The notes under the pieces were generated by a model. The model was not told where the DNA came from and made no database searches. It saw only the letters and a program-made list of their open reading frames with translations. A stretch of 58,911 bases of DNA from Bacillus sp. ISL-37. Its GTDB lineage: Bacteria > Bacillota > Bacilli > Bacillales > Cytobacillaceae. Position 1 is the first letter of the stretch. Each line of letters begins with the position of its first letter. The DNA lies in NCBI RefSeq assembly GCF_018613315.1, contig NZ_JAGGQL010000027.1, forward strand, positions 1 through 58,911, in the 5' to 3' direction. Below, piece by piece: positions 4-18,323 of this stretch. A program made the translations under genes and the position numbers.

Positions 4-297
4 TCTAGCTCCAGCGCCTAGCCCCTCGAGTCGCTTGTCTAGTGTCGCCTCCTAGAAACTCCGAAACTTCAACTCCGCCGGCAGAAGCAAAAAGCGCTTC
101 TTTGTCGGAGTCTCCAGTTTCTGCGTTTCTGGACAGTCGGCTATACATTTCGATTTCGGTCCGCCCAATGAAGTCAAAGATCGACTTCACTGGTCGGCCC
201 TCTTAGGCACAGGACGTGCAGACCCGACTGCCACAGGATGTGGCGTTATAGTCGGGCAGCGCTTGTCGGGGCTGAACGAGGCGCTTGCGCTTTTTGT
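4..297. repeat. Dispersed repeat A, copy 1 (structured, noncoding)
   Basis: The first part (about 4-190) matches the last 175 bases of the window (58737-58911) almost base for base, except for a roughly 20-bp indel near 91-112 (a small AGAAGC/GCTTCT hairpin present only here) and a few substitutions. The rest of this copy holds a nested hairpin (CCCGACT 223-229 with AGTCGGG 250-256, enclosing GCCACA 230-235 with TGTGGC 239-244) and a GCGC-rich end beside sspO. Open frames inside it are low-complexity shadows. It resembles the intergenic repeats common in Bacillaceae genomes; no transposase is present. Confidence 0.85.
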
Positions 298-781: not shown

Positions 782-3490
782 ATGTCAAACCAAGATGTTT
801 TTAACGCCCGCAGTTCATTTGAAGTTGACGGGAAACGCTATCATTACTATAGCCTGGCAGCATTAGAAAAGGCTGGAATCGGCAATGTATCAAAACTACC
901 TTACTCAGTGAAGGTATTGCTTGAATCCGTACTTCGCCAGCATGATGGCTTTGTGATCACAAAAGAGCACGTTGAAAATCTAGCAAAATGGGGAACTAGC
1001 GAAGTAAAAGAAGTGGATGTGCCTTTCAAGCCTTCACGTGTAATTCTCCAGGACTTCACTGGTGTACCAGCAGTCGTTGACCTTGCATCACTTAGAAAAG
1101 CAATGGCTGACTTGGGTGGAGACCCGCAAAAAATCAATCCTGAAAAGCCGGTTGATCTAGTTATTGACCACTCAGTACAGGTTGATAAATACGGAACTCC
1201 AGACGCACTTAATGTAAATATGGAACTCGAATTCGAACGTAATGCTGAACGTTACCAGTTCTTAAGCTGGGCACAGAAAGCATTCGATAACTACCGTGCT
1301 GTTCCACCAGCAACAGGTATCGTGCACCAGGTTAACCTTGAGTACCTTGCAAATGTTGTTCATGCTGTAGAGAATGCAGATGGCGAATTTGAAACTTTCC
1401 CTGATTCATTGGTGGGTACTGACTCACATACTACAATGATCAATGGTATTGGCGTTCTTGGATGGGGCGTAGGCGGTATCGAAGCAGAAGCTGGAATGCT
1501 TGGCCAGCCTTCATACTTCCCAGTTCCAGAAGTAGTAGGTGTAAAATTAGTAGGAGATATGCCGAACGGTGCTACTGCAACTGACCTTGCACTTAAAGTG
1601 ACTCAGGTTCTTCGCAGCAAAGGCGTTGTTGGCAAATTCGTCGAGTTCTTCGGACCTGGCGTAGTTACACTTCCACTTGCTGATCGTGCGACAGTTGCCA
1701 ATATGGCGCCTGAATACGGCGCAACTTGCGGATTCTTCCCAGTTGATGGAGAAGCATTGGATTACATGCGTTTAACTGGACGCACAGAAGATCACATTAA
1801 AGTGGTTGAGGCATACTGCAAGGAGAACGGACTATTCTTCGATCCTGCATTAGAGCCAGTTTACACTGATGTTGTAGAAATCAACCTTTCAGACATCGAA
1901 CCAAACCTTTCTGGTCCAAAGCGTCCGCAGGATTTAATCCCACTATCTGCAATGCAGAAATCCTTCAAGGAAGCATTGACTGCTCCTGCAGGAAACCAGG
2001 GATTCGGCCTTGATAAGAAAGAGATCGATAAAGAAGCAGTGGTCGAGTTCGCTAATGGCGACAAGACAACAATGAAGACTGGTGCAATCGCGATCGCCGC
2101 GATCACTAGCTGTACAAATACATCTAACCCATACGTACTTGTTGGGGCAGGACTTGTAGCCAAGAAGGCTGTTGAACTAGGAATGGAAGTTCCTAAGTTC
2201 GTAAAAACTTCATTGGCACCTGGTTCAAAGGTTGTAACTGGATACCTTCGCGATTCAGCATTGCTTCCTTACCTTGAAACACTTGGCTTTAACCTTGTAG
2301 GTTATGGATGTACGACATGTATCGGTAACTCTGGCCCATTAAAGCCGGAAATCGAAAAGTCTGTTGCTGAAAGCGACCTTCTGGTAACTTCAGTCCTTTC
2401 CGGTAACCGTAACTTCGAAGGACGTATCCACCCGCTTGTAAAAGCAAACTACCTGGCTTCGCCGCCATTGGTTGTTGCATATGCACTTGCAGGAACAGTG
2501 GACATCGACCTGCAGAATGACCCAATCGGTAAAGATAAAGACGGCAACGATGTATTCTTCAAGGATATCTGGCCTTCAACTGCAGAAGTGAACGAAGTCG
2601 TTCACCGCGTAGTTACTCCAGAGCTATTCCGCAGAGAATACGAAACAGTATTCACTGACAATGAAAAGTGGAACGAGATCCAAACAAACAGCGATCCACT
2701 TTATACATTTGATGAAGATTCAACTTATATCGCAAACCCACCATTCTTTGAAGGTTTAACTCCAGAGGCTGGGGAAGTTGCTCCATTGAACAGCCTTCGT
2801 ATTGTCGGCAAGTTCGGTGATTCTGTAACAACTGACCATATTTCTCCTGCAGGTGCGATCGGCAAAGATACACCAGCTGGAAAATACCTGCGTGAAAAAG
2901 GTGTAGAACCTCGTGATTTCAACTCATACGGTTCACGCCGTGGTAACCACGAAGTCATGATGCGCGGTACATTCGCAAACATCCGTATCAAGAACCAAAT
3001 CGCTCCTGGCACAGAAGGTGGCTTCACAACTTACTGGCCAACGAACGAAGTCATGTCCATCTTTGATGCTTGCATGAAGTACAAAGAGCAGGGCACTGGC
3101 CTGATGGTTATCGCAGGAAAAGATTACGGAATGGGATCATCCCGTGATTGGGCTGCAAAGGGTACTAACCTATTAGGTATCAAGACTGTTATTGCTGAAA
3201 GTTTCGAGCGTATCCACCGTTCAAACCTTGTATTGATGGGCGTACTGCCACTTCAATTCAAAGCTGGTGAAAACGCAGAAACTCTTGGCCTGACAGGAAG
3301 AGAATCATTTGACGTCCAGATTGATGAAAAGGTTCGCCCACGCGACATCATTACTGTGACAGCTACTGACGAAGACGGCAACAAAAAGACTTTTGAAGCT
3401 CTTGTACGTTTCGATTCAGAAGTCGAAATCGACTACTACCGTCACGGCGGAATCCTGCAAATGGTTCTTCGTGATAAGTTAAAAGCGTAA
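782..3490 (+). CDS. acnA: Aconitate hydratase A
   Basis: A 902-residue aconitase, full length for the AcnA/IRP1-type family, catalysing citrate-isocitrate interconversion in the TCA cycle in the cytoplasm. The [4Fe-4S] ligands are visible: Cys444 in [10 protein letters not shown] and Cys510/Cys513 in [10 protein letters not shown]. The C-terminal swivel domain carries the [16 protein letters not shown] active-site loop. The start is preceded by AAGGGGG. In B. subtilis the orthologue (citB) is repressed by CcpC and its apo-form binds RNA; a CcpC-like dyad lies upstream here. It is a single-gene unit ending in a strong terminator. Confidence 0.98.
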
Positions 3491-15125: not shown

Positions 15126-15569
15126 ATGAAAATTTCTTCTAGGGAGATCGAGGTTAGATATGCGGAAACAGATCAGATGGGGGTCGTGTATCACGCTAAT
15201 TATCTGGTGTGGATGGAGCTGGGCAGAACTCAATTGATTAAAGAGCTTGGCTTTAATTATGCAGAAATGGAGAAGGATGGAATCATCTCACCTGTTCTTG
15301 ATATCCAAGCTTCCTATAAAAAACCACTGAGATATGGAGAAACAGCTACAATCAAAACCTGGGTGGAGGAATATGATGGCATTCGCTCCGTCTATAAATA
15401 TGAAATCTTCAATGGTGAGGGCGAGCTTGCTTTGACTGGCAGCTCAAAACATGTCTGTGTTAAAAAGGATAGCTTCCGCCCGATTTCGTTAAAAAGAAGC
15501 TACCCTGACTGGCATGAAGCTTATCTAAAGGCAATGAAGAAACCAGAAGATGAAAAGGAGAAAGTCTGA
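15126..15569 (+). CDS. yneP: Acyl-CoA thioesterase, hotdog fold (YneP)
   Basis: A 147-residue YbgC/4-hydroxybenzoyl-CoA-thioesterase-type protein. The signature VRYAETDQMGVVYHANYLVW contains the catalytic Asp of this family. Such enzymes hydrolyse short or medium acyl-CoA thioesters; the physiological substrate is unknown. The start follows AAAGGGG. It sits 30 nt after the AAA+ gene and 1 nt before yneQ, so the three are probably cotranscribed. The yneP-yneQ order is conserved in Bacillus, which supports the names. Confidence 0.93.
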   Translation: MKISSREIEVRYAETDQMGVVYHANYLVWMELGRTQLIKELGFNYAEMEKDGIISPVLDIQASYKKPLRYGETATIKTWVEEYDGIRSVYKYEIFNGEGELALTGSSKHVCVKKDSFRPISLKRSYPDWHEAYLKAMKKPEDEKEKV

Positions 15570-15872: not shown

Positions 15873-15905
15873 AGGCAGACGCTAAATGCGTCTGCCTATT
15901 TCTTT
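15873..15905. terminator. Bidirectional terminator yneQ/yneR
   Basis: AGGCAGACGC (15873-15882) pairs perfectly with GCGTCTGCCT (15888-15897), followed by ATTTCTTTT. It overlaps the end of the convergent yneR gene. Confidence 0.85.
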
Positions 15906-16189
15906 TCGAATTTGAAATCAGGTTCCTGGCCAACCGGGTGGAGTTCCACGGTCATATCATGGCCGTCAAAATACCAAATATCTTTCTCTTCAATATAATA
16001 GGTGATCCCATTTTTTTCTGTTTTTACGCCAATGTGATCCGGTTCTTCCTTGGAGACACCTAATGAAAAACCTTTCTGAATTGAACTGAAGCCGCCATAC
16101 CGGACAAAAAATCGTAAATAGCTTCCGGATGAAAGGTCCATTTCATTTTCATACCATGCTGCTGCATCATCATTAATTGTAATATTCAT
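15896..16189 (-). CDS. yneR: HesB-like protein without cysteines (YneR)
   Basis: A 97-residue HesB/IscA-fold protein matching YneR. IscA-type scaffolds bind iron-sulfur clusters or iron through three cysteines; this one has none, the first position being occupied by YGGFSS instead of the usual G-C-S-G. It therefore probably does not carry a cluster in the standard way. The start follows AAAGGAG. It is convergent with yneQ. A second, very different HesB-like gene lies at 17608, beyond the capA-like gene. Confidence 0.88.
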   Translation of the reverse strand: MNITINDDAAAWYENEMDLSSGSYLRFFVRYGGFSSIQKGFSLGVSKEEPDHIGVKTEKNGITYYIEEKDIWYFDGHDMTVELHPVGQEPDFKFEKK

Positions 16190-16265: not shown

Positions 16266-17432
16266 TTATTCTTTTATAAATTGAGTCATATGATGCATGA
16301 TCTCATTATATTTATTTTCGGCACCAGCAAGACCGAATTTACCGGCTTCCTGCAATGGAACCACCTGGTAATTCCTTTGCCTGCTGCTAGAAACAAAGGT
16401 CGGGATAAATTCAGGGTTATTTAATACAATTTCATTACCTTCCGGTGTGATGGTTTTAGTTATTTCCACAGTGGCAAGACCGCCAATGTCTTTATAATCC
16501 CACATTTGACCTGACAGGAAGTTGCCAAGAGAGTAGACAACTAATGCTTTTCTGCCGTCTGTCGCCGTCAGCCAATCCATAGGCTGAAGAACATGCGGGT
16601 GATGGCCAAAGATGATATCAACACCCTCGTCGACGAGAAATTGTGCAAGGTCCTCTTGTTCAGTTGTAGGGAAACGCTGGTATTCATTTCCCCAGTGGAT
16701 ACTCATGACCACAACATCAGACTCTGCTTTAGCGCGATGAATCTCAGCCTTCATTGCTTCTCTGTCAATGAGATTCACGAGATGATCCTTGCCTATAGGG
16801 ACAGGAATCCCGTTCGTTCCATAGGTGTATGATAGATAGGAAACATTAATCCCATTTTTATTCAATATGCGCAATTTTTGCTGGTCGGCATCATCCTTGT
16901 ATGAACCTACATAAGGGAGCCCAGCAGCTTCCATGTTTTTAATAGAAGCCATCACACCTTTTTCAGACTTATCAAGCGAATGGTTATTTGCATTTGATAC
17001 AATATCCACTCCTGCATCTATAAACGCCTCACCAACCTCAACAGGACTATTGAACATAGGATAGCTTGACAGTCCGATTTCCACTCCGCCAAGAAGCGTT
17101 TCCTGGTTCGCGAGCAATAGGTCAGGTTCAATTAAATATTCCTTAACATTACTGAGCATCGGTTTGAAGTCATACCCAGGGTTCACGAAAGCATCTTCGT
17201 AAACTGTATCGTGGATCAGGATATCACCAATTGCTCCTAATTTCACCGTTTCCACAAAGCTCTTTCCAGAAACATCATAGCTTCTCTCAAGATGTGGTTT
17301 TTGAGATTTCATTTTTATACTTGGTGCCTTGGCCTCGGCTTCATGATACATCTGAAATGTTAATACAGATGCCAAAACACCTAAGCCAGCAAACAAGGCC
17401 AGTCCAAAAGGTTTTTTCTTCTTTTTTCTCAT
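16266..17432 (-). CDS. CapA family secreted or membrane-anchored metallophosphatase-like protein
   Basis: A 388-residue protein with a basic N terminus and one membrane segment (about 8-25), then a PgsA/CapA-type domain with metallophosphoesterase-like motifs GAIGDILIHD, LANQETLLGG, NANNHSLD, SIHWGNEYQ and GHHPHVLQ. CapA/PgsA proteins take part in poly-gamma-glutamate synthesis or export, but no pgsB or pgsC homologue is adjacent, so the role here is open (many Bacillaceae carry such orphan copies). The hairpin at 16233-16256 downstream lacks a convincing T run. Confidence 0.9.
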   Translation of the reverse strand: MRKKKKKPFGLALFAGLGVLASVLTFQMYHEAEAKAPSIKMKSQKPHLERSYDVSGKSFVETVKLGAIGDILIHDTVYEDAFVNPGYDFKPMLSNVKEYLIEPDLLLANQETLLGGVEIGLSSYPMFNSPVEVGEAFIDAGVDIVSNANNHSLDKSEKGVMASIKNMEAAGLPYVGSYKDDADQQKLRILNKNGINVSYLSYTYGTNGIPVPIGKDHLVNLIDREAMKAEIHRAKAESDVVVMSIHWGNEYQRFPTTEQEDLAQFLVDEGVDIIFGHHPHVLQPMDWLTATDGRKALVVYSLGNFLSGQMWDYKDIGGLATVEITKTITPEGNEIVLNNPEFIPTFVSSSRQRNYQVVPLQEAGKFGLAGAENKYNEIMHHMTQFIKE

Positions 17433-17607
17433 ATTAATCTCCCCAGATTAGAATGAGGCATTTTTATTTTTAAGCCCCTAAGGATAATATATTATAAGTA
17501 TGGTGATAAATGTATAAATTTCAGTGTGATTTTCATATTTTTGTCATAATTCGATAAATTATTTGAAAAGTATTTTGATAATAATAGCAAGGAGAGGGAG
17601 ATTGTAT

Positions 17608-17895
17608 ATGTTTAAAATTACTGACAGTGCTTATAAAATATTGCTCAAGGCCATCAAAGTGGAAAGGGAAGATGGGGAAAAGCTTTATGTCCGACTGACG
17701 ATGGGGATCGGCTGAGGGGGACCACAGCTAAGAGTTGCTCTGGAGGAGCAGCCGTTAACAAATGATCAGATTTTTACATTTGACGAGGTTTCAATCCTGA
17801 TTCATGAGGGTGATTCCGTTTACTTCGATAATACCAAACTAGATTATCTAAAAGATGTTTTTGGTTCGGGAAAGTTTAAACTCCTTAAAGTGTAA
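17608..17895 (+). CDS. HesB/IscA-like protein with in-frame TGA: candidate selenoprotein
   Basis: One reading frame of 96 codons runs from ATG 17608 to TAA 17895, broken only by TGA at 17713-17715 (codon 36). Before it the frame reads MFKITDSAYKILLKA...LYVRLTMGIG; after it, GGPQLRVALEE...DSVYFDNTKLDYLK, a complete HesB-like C-terminal half. The TGA sits where IscA proteins have their first conserved Cys (GxGC-GG), the expected site for selenocysteine, and HesB-like selenoproteins are a known bacterial class. A suitable hairpin follows. AGGGAG precedes the start by 7 nt. The alternative is a nonsense mutation. A standard gene caller would drop it or stop at 35 codons. Confidence 0.7.
17734..17752 (+). 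promoter_or_regulatory. Candidate bacterial SECIS hairpin
   Basis: GTTGCTC (17734-17740) pairs with GAGCAGC (17746-17752), including one G-U pair, closing a 5-nt loop TGGAG. The loop begins 25 nt after the TGA and has G at its second position, within the spacing and loop rules described for bacterial selenocysteine insertion elements. It lies inside the coding frame, as bacterial SECIS elements do. Confidence 0.55.
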
Positions 17896-18052
17896 CTTGT
17901 TAAAAGTAAAAAGAGACTTACTCAAAAGGTTGATTAAATTCGACCTGAGAGTCGCCTAATTTATTGTTTTATCCAGAATCAGGGTAAAGTTTGGTGGATT
18001 CATAAGAGATAGAAGGATATCCCTTCACCTATCTAAGCTATAGATACCTGAG

Positions 18053-18301
18053 TTGATTGAAGTGGAAGGCGCGAAGACTCCTCCGAAAATGCTAACGCAT
18101 TTCCATCGTGCGTGGGCAGGTCCGAGGAAGCTTAATCAATGTCCTGCGGGATCAGCTGGCCAGGTGAGACCCCGCAAGAGCGAAGCGATGAGGAGGCTAA
18201 GCGCCGGCCCCAAGGAAGAATTGCTTATGATAAGACGGCAAGTGGTCTTCTTCATATTCTTCCCGCGGAAAACGAAGCGCCTGGAACGGAAATCAACGGA
18301 C
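18053..18301. repeat. Dispersed repeat C (composite, GC-richer)
   Basis: The stretch carries the pieces of a repeat seen widely in Bacillaceae: GAAGGCGCGAAGACTCCT at the left, CTGCGGGATCAGC then CAGGTGAGACCCCGCA in the middle, and CGCGGAAAACGAAGCGCC then GGAACGGAAATCAAC at the right. Two segments without the usual pattern (about 18081-18143 and 18219-18262) appear inserted. Open frames through it lack ribosome binding sites. A fragment of its right end recurs at 20810-20845. Confidence 0.7.
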
Positions 18302-18323
18302 CAAATTTACAAGCTATCCTAAA

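Follow-up and report, generated by a model that had tools for sequence, protein, structure and literature searches.

We identified, within the window (the whole stretch of 58,911 nucleotides analysed here), a gene whose in-frame TGA at codon 36 is almost certainly decoded as selenocysteine (Sec), judging from sequence comparisons. The joint reading, in which the gene encodes a HesB/IscA-fold protein and the TGA is decoded as Sec, is very probable. The initial annotation had proposed a candidate selenoprotein at this site, a proposal that is supported by conservation of the TGA, purifying selection, covariation in a downstream hairpin, the Sec machinery of the genome, and co-occurrence of the gene with selA. 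The window protein belongs to a divergent, nearly Cys-free group within the already known class of HesB-like selenoproteins.

The in-frame TGA and its conservation

The gene starts with an ATG (17608-17610), and its frame comprises 95 codons (17608-17892) followed by the terminal TAA (17893-17895). As had been described from the sequence before, the frame is whole on either side of one TGA (17713-17715, codon 36), which is the sole in-frame stop ahead of the TAA and the point at which conventional translation of the gene ends. Protein searches were run with Sec entered as C. With the TGA read as a residue, the product matched Pfam Fe-S_biosyn (PF01521) at 27.6 bits, just over the gathering score of 26.3. 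Codon 36 aligned with a conserved Cys of 1nwb, a solved IscA-family protein, in agreement with the earlier view that the TGA replaces the first cluster-binding cysteine of IscA. The UxGP motif of HesB-like selenoproteins was present as UGGP (residues 36-39) inside the HesB domain, and the window protein contained no Cys.

Table 1 Features of the window around the Sec gene and its conserved neighbours.
Feature	Position	Strand	Basis
Gene for predicted Sec-containing HesB/IscA-fold protein (95 residues, Sec at residue 36)	17608..17895	+	Sequence, Pfam, TGA conservation, dN/dS, predicted fold
TGA decoded as Sec (predicted)	17713..17715	+	TGA in 39/39 strong matches and 80/80 named loci
SECIS hairpin (predicted; 7 bp stem, 5 nt apical loop UGGAG at 17741-17745)	17734..17752	+	Covariation, published model
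Probable ribosome-binding site AAGGAGAGGGAG	17589..17600	+	Read from sequence
PGA_cap (CapA-like) gene, divergent from Sec gene	16266..17432	-	Pfam and neighbourhood comparison
Second HesB-domain gene, no Cys or in-frame TGA	15896..16189	-	Sequence cluster near Sec gene in 46/51 window-like loci
Thioesterase-superfamily gene, conserved neighbour	15126..15569	+	47/51 window-like loci
Aconitase gene, left end of contig	782..3490	+	Between selA and Sec gene in several other genomes

A search of 61 related genomes returned 79 matches. Exactly one TGA was present in all 39 strong matches (E<=1e-13, counting the window), and the 40 weaker matches comprised 26 with a TGA and 14 without a stop; from the latter set, L107 was read and was an ordinary Cys-containing HesB protein. 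Within the genus, 19 of 20 further genomes had the gene, and it was missing from G011, which has selB and tRNA-Sec and no copy of this gene type. For the named genomes, the query was limited to the part after the TGA so that the codon could not bias the search. The TGA was found at this codon in all 80 named loci kept (out of 85 found), which belonged to several genera, and the motif TCTGGARGAG was invariant across the 80. These named loci and the 61-genome set share many genomes and are not independent. In a sample spanning the phylum, 13 of 398 genomes had a match at E<=1e-20, all with a TGA inside, and the match in G581 contained two. None of the phage records searched matched at E<=1e-3.

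The closest named relatives were Mesobacillus boroniphilus, Bacillus sp. ISL-55, and M. selenatarsenatis, which makes a Mesobacillus the probable host. Defects were present in some homologues: a 5' frame shift in one genome (L027/L108), a 3' frame shift in one genome (L036/L109/L129), and an interrupting TAA in L148. Two copies recorded under Chryseobacterium sp. ISL-80 (L118) and Pseudomonas sp. ISL-84 (L141) were of the Bacillaceae type, and these record titles are probably wrong. The window's genome also holds a second HesB-type gene (L048:4169-4441, contig C44) that likewise has a TGA in frame and shares the hairpin core.

Purifying selection was equally strong on both sides of the codon (dN/dS 0.133 upstream of the TGA vs. 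0.130 downstream; 16 sequences, 120 pairs). The initial annotation had named an unrelated sense codon in relatives, together with a lack of selection past the TGA, as evidence that would count against it; neither was seen. Within the hairpin, third codon positions were frozen: codon 45 was CTG and codon 47 was GAG in 27 of 27 sequences, while codon 44 was GCT or TCT in 26 and GTT in the remaining one.

Downstream hairpin and selenocysteine machinery

The predicted SECIS hairpin starts 18 nt past the TGA. According to the accessible part of one source (PMC13188914), bacterial SECIS elements have a loop of 3-9 nt with a G within its first two positions, an upper stem of 4-16 bp, a distance of 16-37 nt from the TGA, and an MFE of -7.5 or lower. 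Our hairpin lies inside these published limits, with a 5 nt loop (UGGAG; 3 nt if a U-G pair closes) located 25 nt past the TGA, 7-8 bp, and a folding energy of -10.3 kcal/mol for the hairpin alone (z -2.56). The folding energy of the 58 nt downstream of the TGA was not unusual (z -0.51) and is thus uninformative, so the case for a SECIS element rests on the covariation, the frozen third positions, and the short hairpin.

Covariation was counted over the seven stem pairs in 45 distinct sequences and compared with 500 shuffles. The stem scored 0.290 (vs. 0.151 shuffled), 88.6% of stem cells were pairing (vs. 79.0%), and 37 cells were changed on both sides (vs. 20.1); for each of the three measures, none of the 500 shuffles was as high. 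When the stem register was slid, the score was at most 0.131, a comparison in which the hairpin is favoured over its slid versions by having been derived from the same sequences that were scored. The number of stem pairs with change on both sides showed no excess in the 45 sequences (3 vs. 2.7 in shuffles), and three of the four outer stem pairs were unformed in 10 to 13 of them in the same register. Where codon 44 is TCT, pairing may be possible via a bulged U, which the covariation count did not include. When the window was scanned against Rfam at gathering scores, the sole match was the Bacillaceae-1 RNA (206-267, minus strand; 36.9 bits vs. a gathering score of 35).

The window's genome encodes selA, selB, a tRNA-Sec with anticodon TCA (UCA), and a selD with an in-frame TGA of its own. 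All four components that the initial annotation had suggested looking for were therefore found, and a genome without Sec machinery, its other counter-evidence, is not what we encountered. A TGA-containing formate dehydrogenase (FdhA) above its cut-off is present, along with a second formate dehydrogenase, also with a TGA, that falls below the cut-off. Sec use had been described as patchy in Bacillaceae; it is not rare here, with selA over its family cut-off in 139 of the 299 genomes that were sampled from the order. When genomes with at least one TGA-holding match of >=77 bits were counted as gene-positive (by hand, from tables), selA was present in 44 of 45 such genomes among the 299 (Fisher p 9e-16, relatedness ignored), and 95 of the 139 selA-positive genomes had no match of 77 bits or more.

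The exception to this co-occurrence bears on whether the TGA could be subject to ordinary readthrough (with Trp or another residue) or act as a regulatory stop, with no Sec involved. Genome G297 has neither selA nor selB over the cut-offs and still carries an intact TGA copy (L096), and the selenium evidence in general is indirect. However, G297 also carries a broken copy (L097; 65.7 bits), and G299, without selA or selB, has only a broken piece (L098; 69.8 bits). These broken copies in genomes missing the machinery suggest that the gene tends to decay where Sec use is lost, with the intact G297 copy speaking against a strict rule. The selA co-occurrence, the covarying SECIS-type hairpin, and the alignment of the TGA with a conserved Cys also argue against readthrough, as does a distant HesB subtype in which Cys and TGA alternate at the same position between two genomes (L100 in G209 and L102 in G158). 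Taken at their full weight, these points make Sec-free readthrough or a regulatory stop very improbable. A recent nonsense mutation leaving a young pseudogene truncated at codon 36, which the initial annotation had named as the main alternative, has a negligible chance of being correct and was rejected, since the TGA is conserved in all named loci of several genera, purifying selection is equal past it, and the third positions in the hairpin are frozen, even though conventional translation halts at this codon and real defects do occur elsewhere in some relatives.

With Sec decoding as the preferred reading, SelB carrying Sec-tRNA(UCA) would bind the hairpin (17734-17752), and Sec would be inserted at the TGA, a site that in IscA is occupied by the first of the cysteines binding the cluster.

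Fold, cysteine content, and known relatives

The AlphaFold model of the window protein (mean pLDDT 93.9) has the A-type fold of the IscA/SufA/ErpA carriers. Nine PDB matches were obtained at E<=0.001, to chains of IscA, SufA, AQ_1857, DsrR, and HI1723, with TM-scores by query length of 0.71-0.82 to IscA and SufA. The window protein shares with IscA, SufA, and ErpA the position of the reactive residue but differs in having no C-terminal Cys pair, with Sec as its lone chalcogen residue. IscA binds its cluster through three conserved ligands, one Cys and a C-terminal Cys-x-Cys. No Cys was present in 77 of the 80 named homologues, where L148 was read to its TAA only and the Cys of L129 lies past the frame shift; in the 61-genome set, a Cys occurs elsewhere in L026, L029, and L045 and at the C-terminus in L052, L056, and L058. 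This near absence of Cys indicates that the three-Cys cluster site of IscA is absent. With the C-terminal IscA cysteines missing, the earlier description of the product as a full HesB-like domain should not be taken to imply an ordinary Fe-S carrier.

It could still be argued that the selenoprotein acts as an IscA/SufA-like Fe-S carrier or scaffold with Sec as a ligand, possibly shared across a dimer, given that the fold is the same and that Sec sits at the first IscA ligand position. We consider such a role unlikely in view of the missing C-terminal Cys-x-Cys and the Cys-free homologues. A different likeness is to DsrR of Allochromatium vinosum, which also has the IscA fold (30% identity in structural match 2k4z) and belongs to the dsr sulfur-oxidation genes; there is no sign of DsrR being a selenoprotein. 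DsrR, going by the title of a paper, is reportedly an IscA-fold protein that does not bind Fe-S and is involved in sulfur oxidation.

The HesB-like selenoproteins have been catalogued as a family that carries a UxGP motif (PMC13188914, accessible part), and a 2016 count gave 90 proteins in 86 organisms (PMC5029168, accessible part). A HesB-like selenoprotein was found through mutagenesis and 75Se labelling in Methanococcus maripaludis, according to the accessible text of a paper that calls the role of HesB-like selenoproteins unclear and cites as an unpublished observation that an M. maripaludis mutant still fixed nitrogen (PMC11097638). The window protein has in common with the curated models TIGR01911 (HesB_rel_seleno) and NCBIfam NF038090 (IscA_HesB_Se) a HesB domain and Sec in the UxGP motif. 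It scored 28.1 of 66.35 bits and 29.9 of 85 bits, respectively, below both cut-offs, and falls in a separate, largely Cys-free group that came mostly from Bacillaceae in the named-genome search. Four other members of the subtype and the C44 paralogue are likewise under the HesB selenoprotein cut-offs, the latter at 60.0 of 66.35 bits. In the literature searched on HesB-like selenoproteins in Bacillus, Bacillaceae, or Bacillales, which covered few subscription papers and no NCBI protein records, we found no description of this group.

Genomic neighbourhoods and possible function

Neighbouring genes were counted up to 6 kb on each side of 51 named loci of the window-like subtype and 29 of a sister subtype, which was defined by LEES or LEET after the hairpin. 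In addition to the neighbours in Table 1, a gene that we presume to be PlsY-like was near the Sec gene in 46 of the 51 window-like loci. The Sec gene shares a contig with selA in 21 of 44 genomes (hand count) and is on a different contig in 23. Where both are on one contig, the distance is about 11 to 33 kb in 15 genomes and 150 kb to 2 Mb in six (G028, G158, G186, G210, G235, and G273). The window is contig C20 of its genome and has aconitase at its start, and contig C61 carries selA close to its end; from the selA-aconitase order found together in other genomes, these two contigs are inferred to be adjacent. An intergenic segment at about 18040-18320 of the window resembled, as an impression from reading the sequence, a dispersed Bacillus-type repeat.

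The conserved placement of the Sec gene beside a HesB-domain gene (46/51) raises the possibility that the selenoprotein acts on an enzyme of metabolism by binding or regulating it, a role that is reported for YneR, which also has a HesB domain. One of the fold matches, 9a4q (E 1.9e-3), is by its title a model of ODPA and YNER and points in this direction; ODPA is a pyruvate dehydrogenase subunit. On the other hand, the neighbour (15896-16189) is a putative YneR by gene order, a PDB chain sequence search with this HesB-domain protein gave no useful match, and there is no clear reason why such a role would call for Sec. We therefore regard enzyme regulation as a rather improbable role for this selenoprotein.

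Sulfur genes of the TusA, rhodanese, DsrE, and MBL-rhodanese types are neighbours of the sister-subtype gene at 18 of its 29 loci, compared with 0 of 51 window-like loci. Three neighbour clusters (rhodanese/TusA-rhodanese, MBL-rhodanese, and DsrE-family) each had this same distribution (p 1e-10, relatedness ignored). TusA-like and TauE-like genes were neighbours in 16 of the 29 loci and CsoR-like regulators in eight. These gene names rest on Pfam matches of a single representative locus (L173); TauE-like is our interpretation for a protein that had no NCBIfam match, and the MBL-rhodanese gene may be labelled a persulfide dioxygenase by analogy, the NCBIfam model having matched far below its cut-off. 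At 16 of these 18 loci, the distance from the end of the closest sulfur gene to the base that follows the Sec codon is 115 to 255 bases, which places that gene just upstream of the Sec gene; the distance is larger in L168 and L170. The 18 loci (L154-L156, L161, L165, L167-L170, L173-L177, L181, L182, L184, and L189) are not independent, as L174 is almost a copy of L177 and L175 of L176. Four plasmids, three from Cytobacillus and one from Mesobacillus, carry a related gene that probably belongs to the sister subtype (L176 and plasmid hits H1-H4); the gene table, which is incomplete, lists no gene at the positions of these plasmid matches.

Both subtypes occur in some genomes (e.g., Cytobacillus gottheilii), which indicates that they are paralogues, and a tree placed them broadly apart with many forks open. 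The sister subtype's cluster resembles the cst operon of Staphylococcus aureus, which comprises sulfide and persulfide detoxification genes (PMC5480029, accessible part), in having a TusA-rhodanese fusion, an MBL-rhodanese gene and, less often, a CsoR-type regulator. It differs in that no HesB protein is described for cst in the accessible part of that source, and the window's own gene is outside such a cluster. Among the titles and abstract openings of papers retrieved for selenoprotein in combination with persulfide dioxygenase, or with both rhodanese and TusA, none tied a bacterial selenoprotein to persulfide genes; rhodanese-type selenoproteins are already named in NCBIfam.

Owing to the likeness to DsrR and the sulfur-gene neighbours of the sister subtype, we tentatively favour sulfane-sulfur handling as the role of the window protein, by analogy. 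The lone selenolate would serve as a reactive chalcogen centre, taking up sulfane sulfur (or selenium), handing it on, or sensing it, in a role somewhat like that of DsrR and not that of an ordinary Fe-S carrier. Nonetheless, this needs to be read with caution considering that sulfur clusters were found at none of the 51 loci of the window's subtype, so that the proposed function is borrowed from a paralogue. The broader picture, a nearly cysteine-free HesB-fold selenoprotein family spread in Bacillota whose one selenolate carries or senses sulfane sulfur (a selenosulfide carrier), is more speculative.

Standard gene calling misses this selenoprotein, and its conserved group falls under current curated cut-offs. 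The near lack of other cysteines and the cst-like neighbours of the sister subtype provide a direct, testable hypothesis of a role in sulfur metabolism. If true, the selenosulfide-carrier reading would tie HesB-like selenoproteins, which have long been without a role, to persulfide detoxification.
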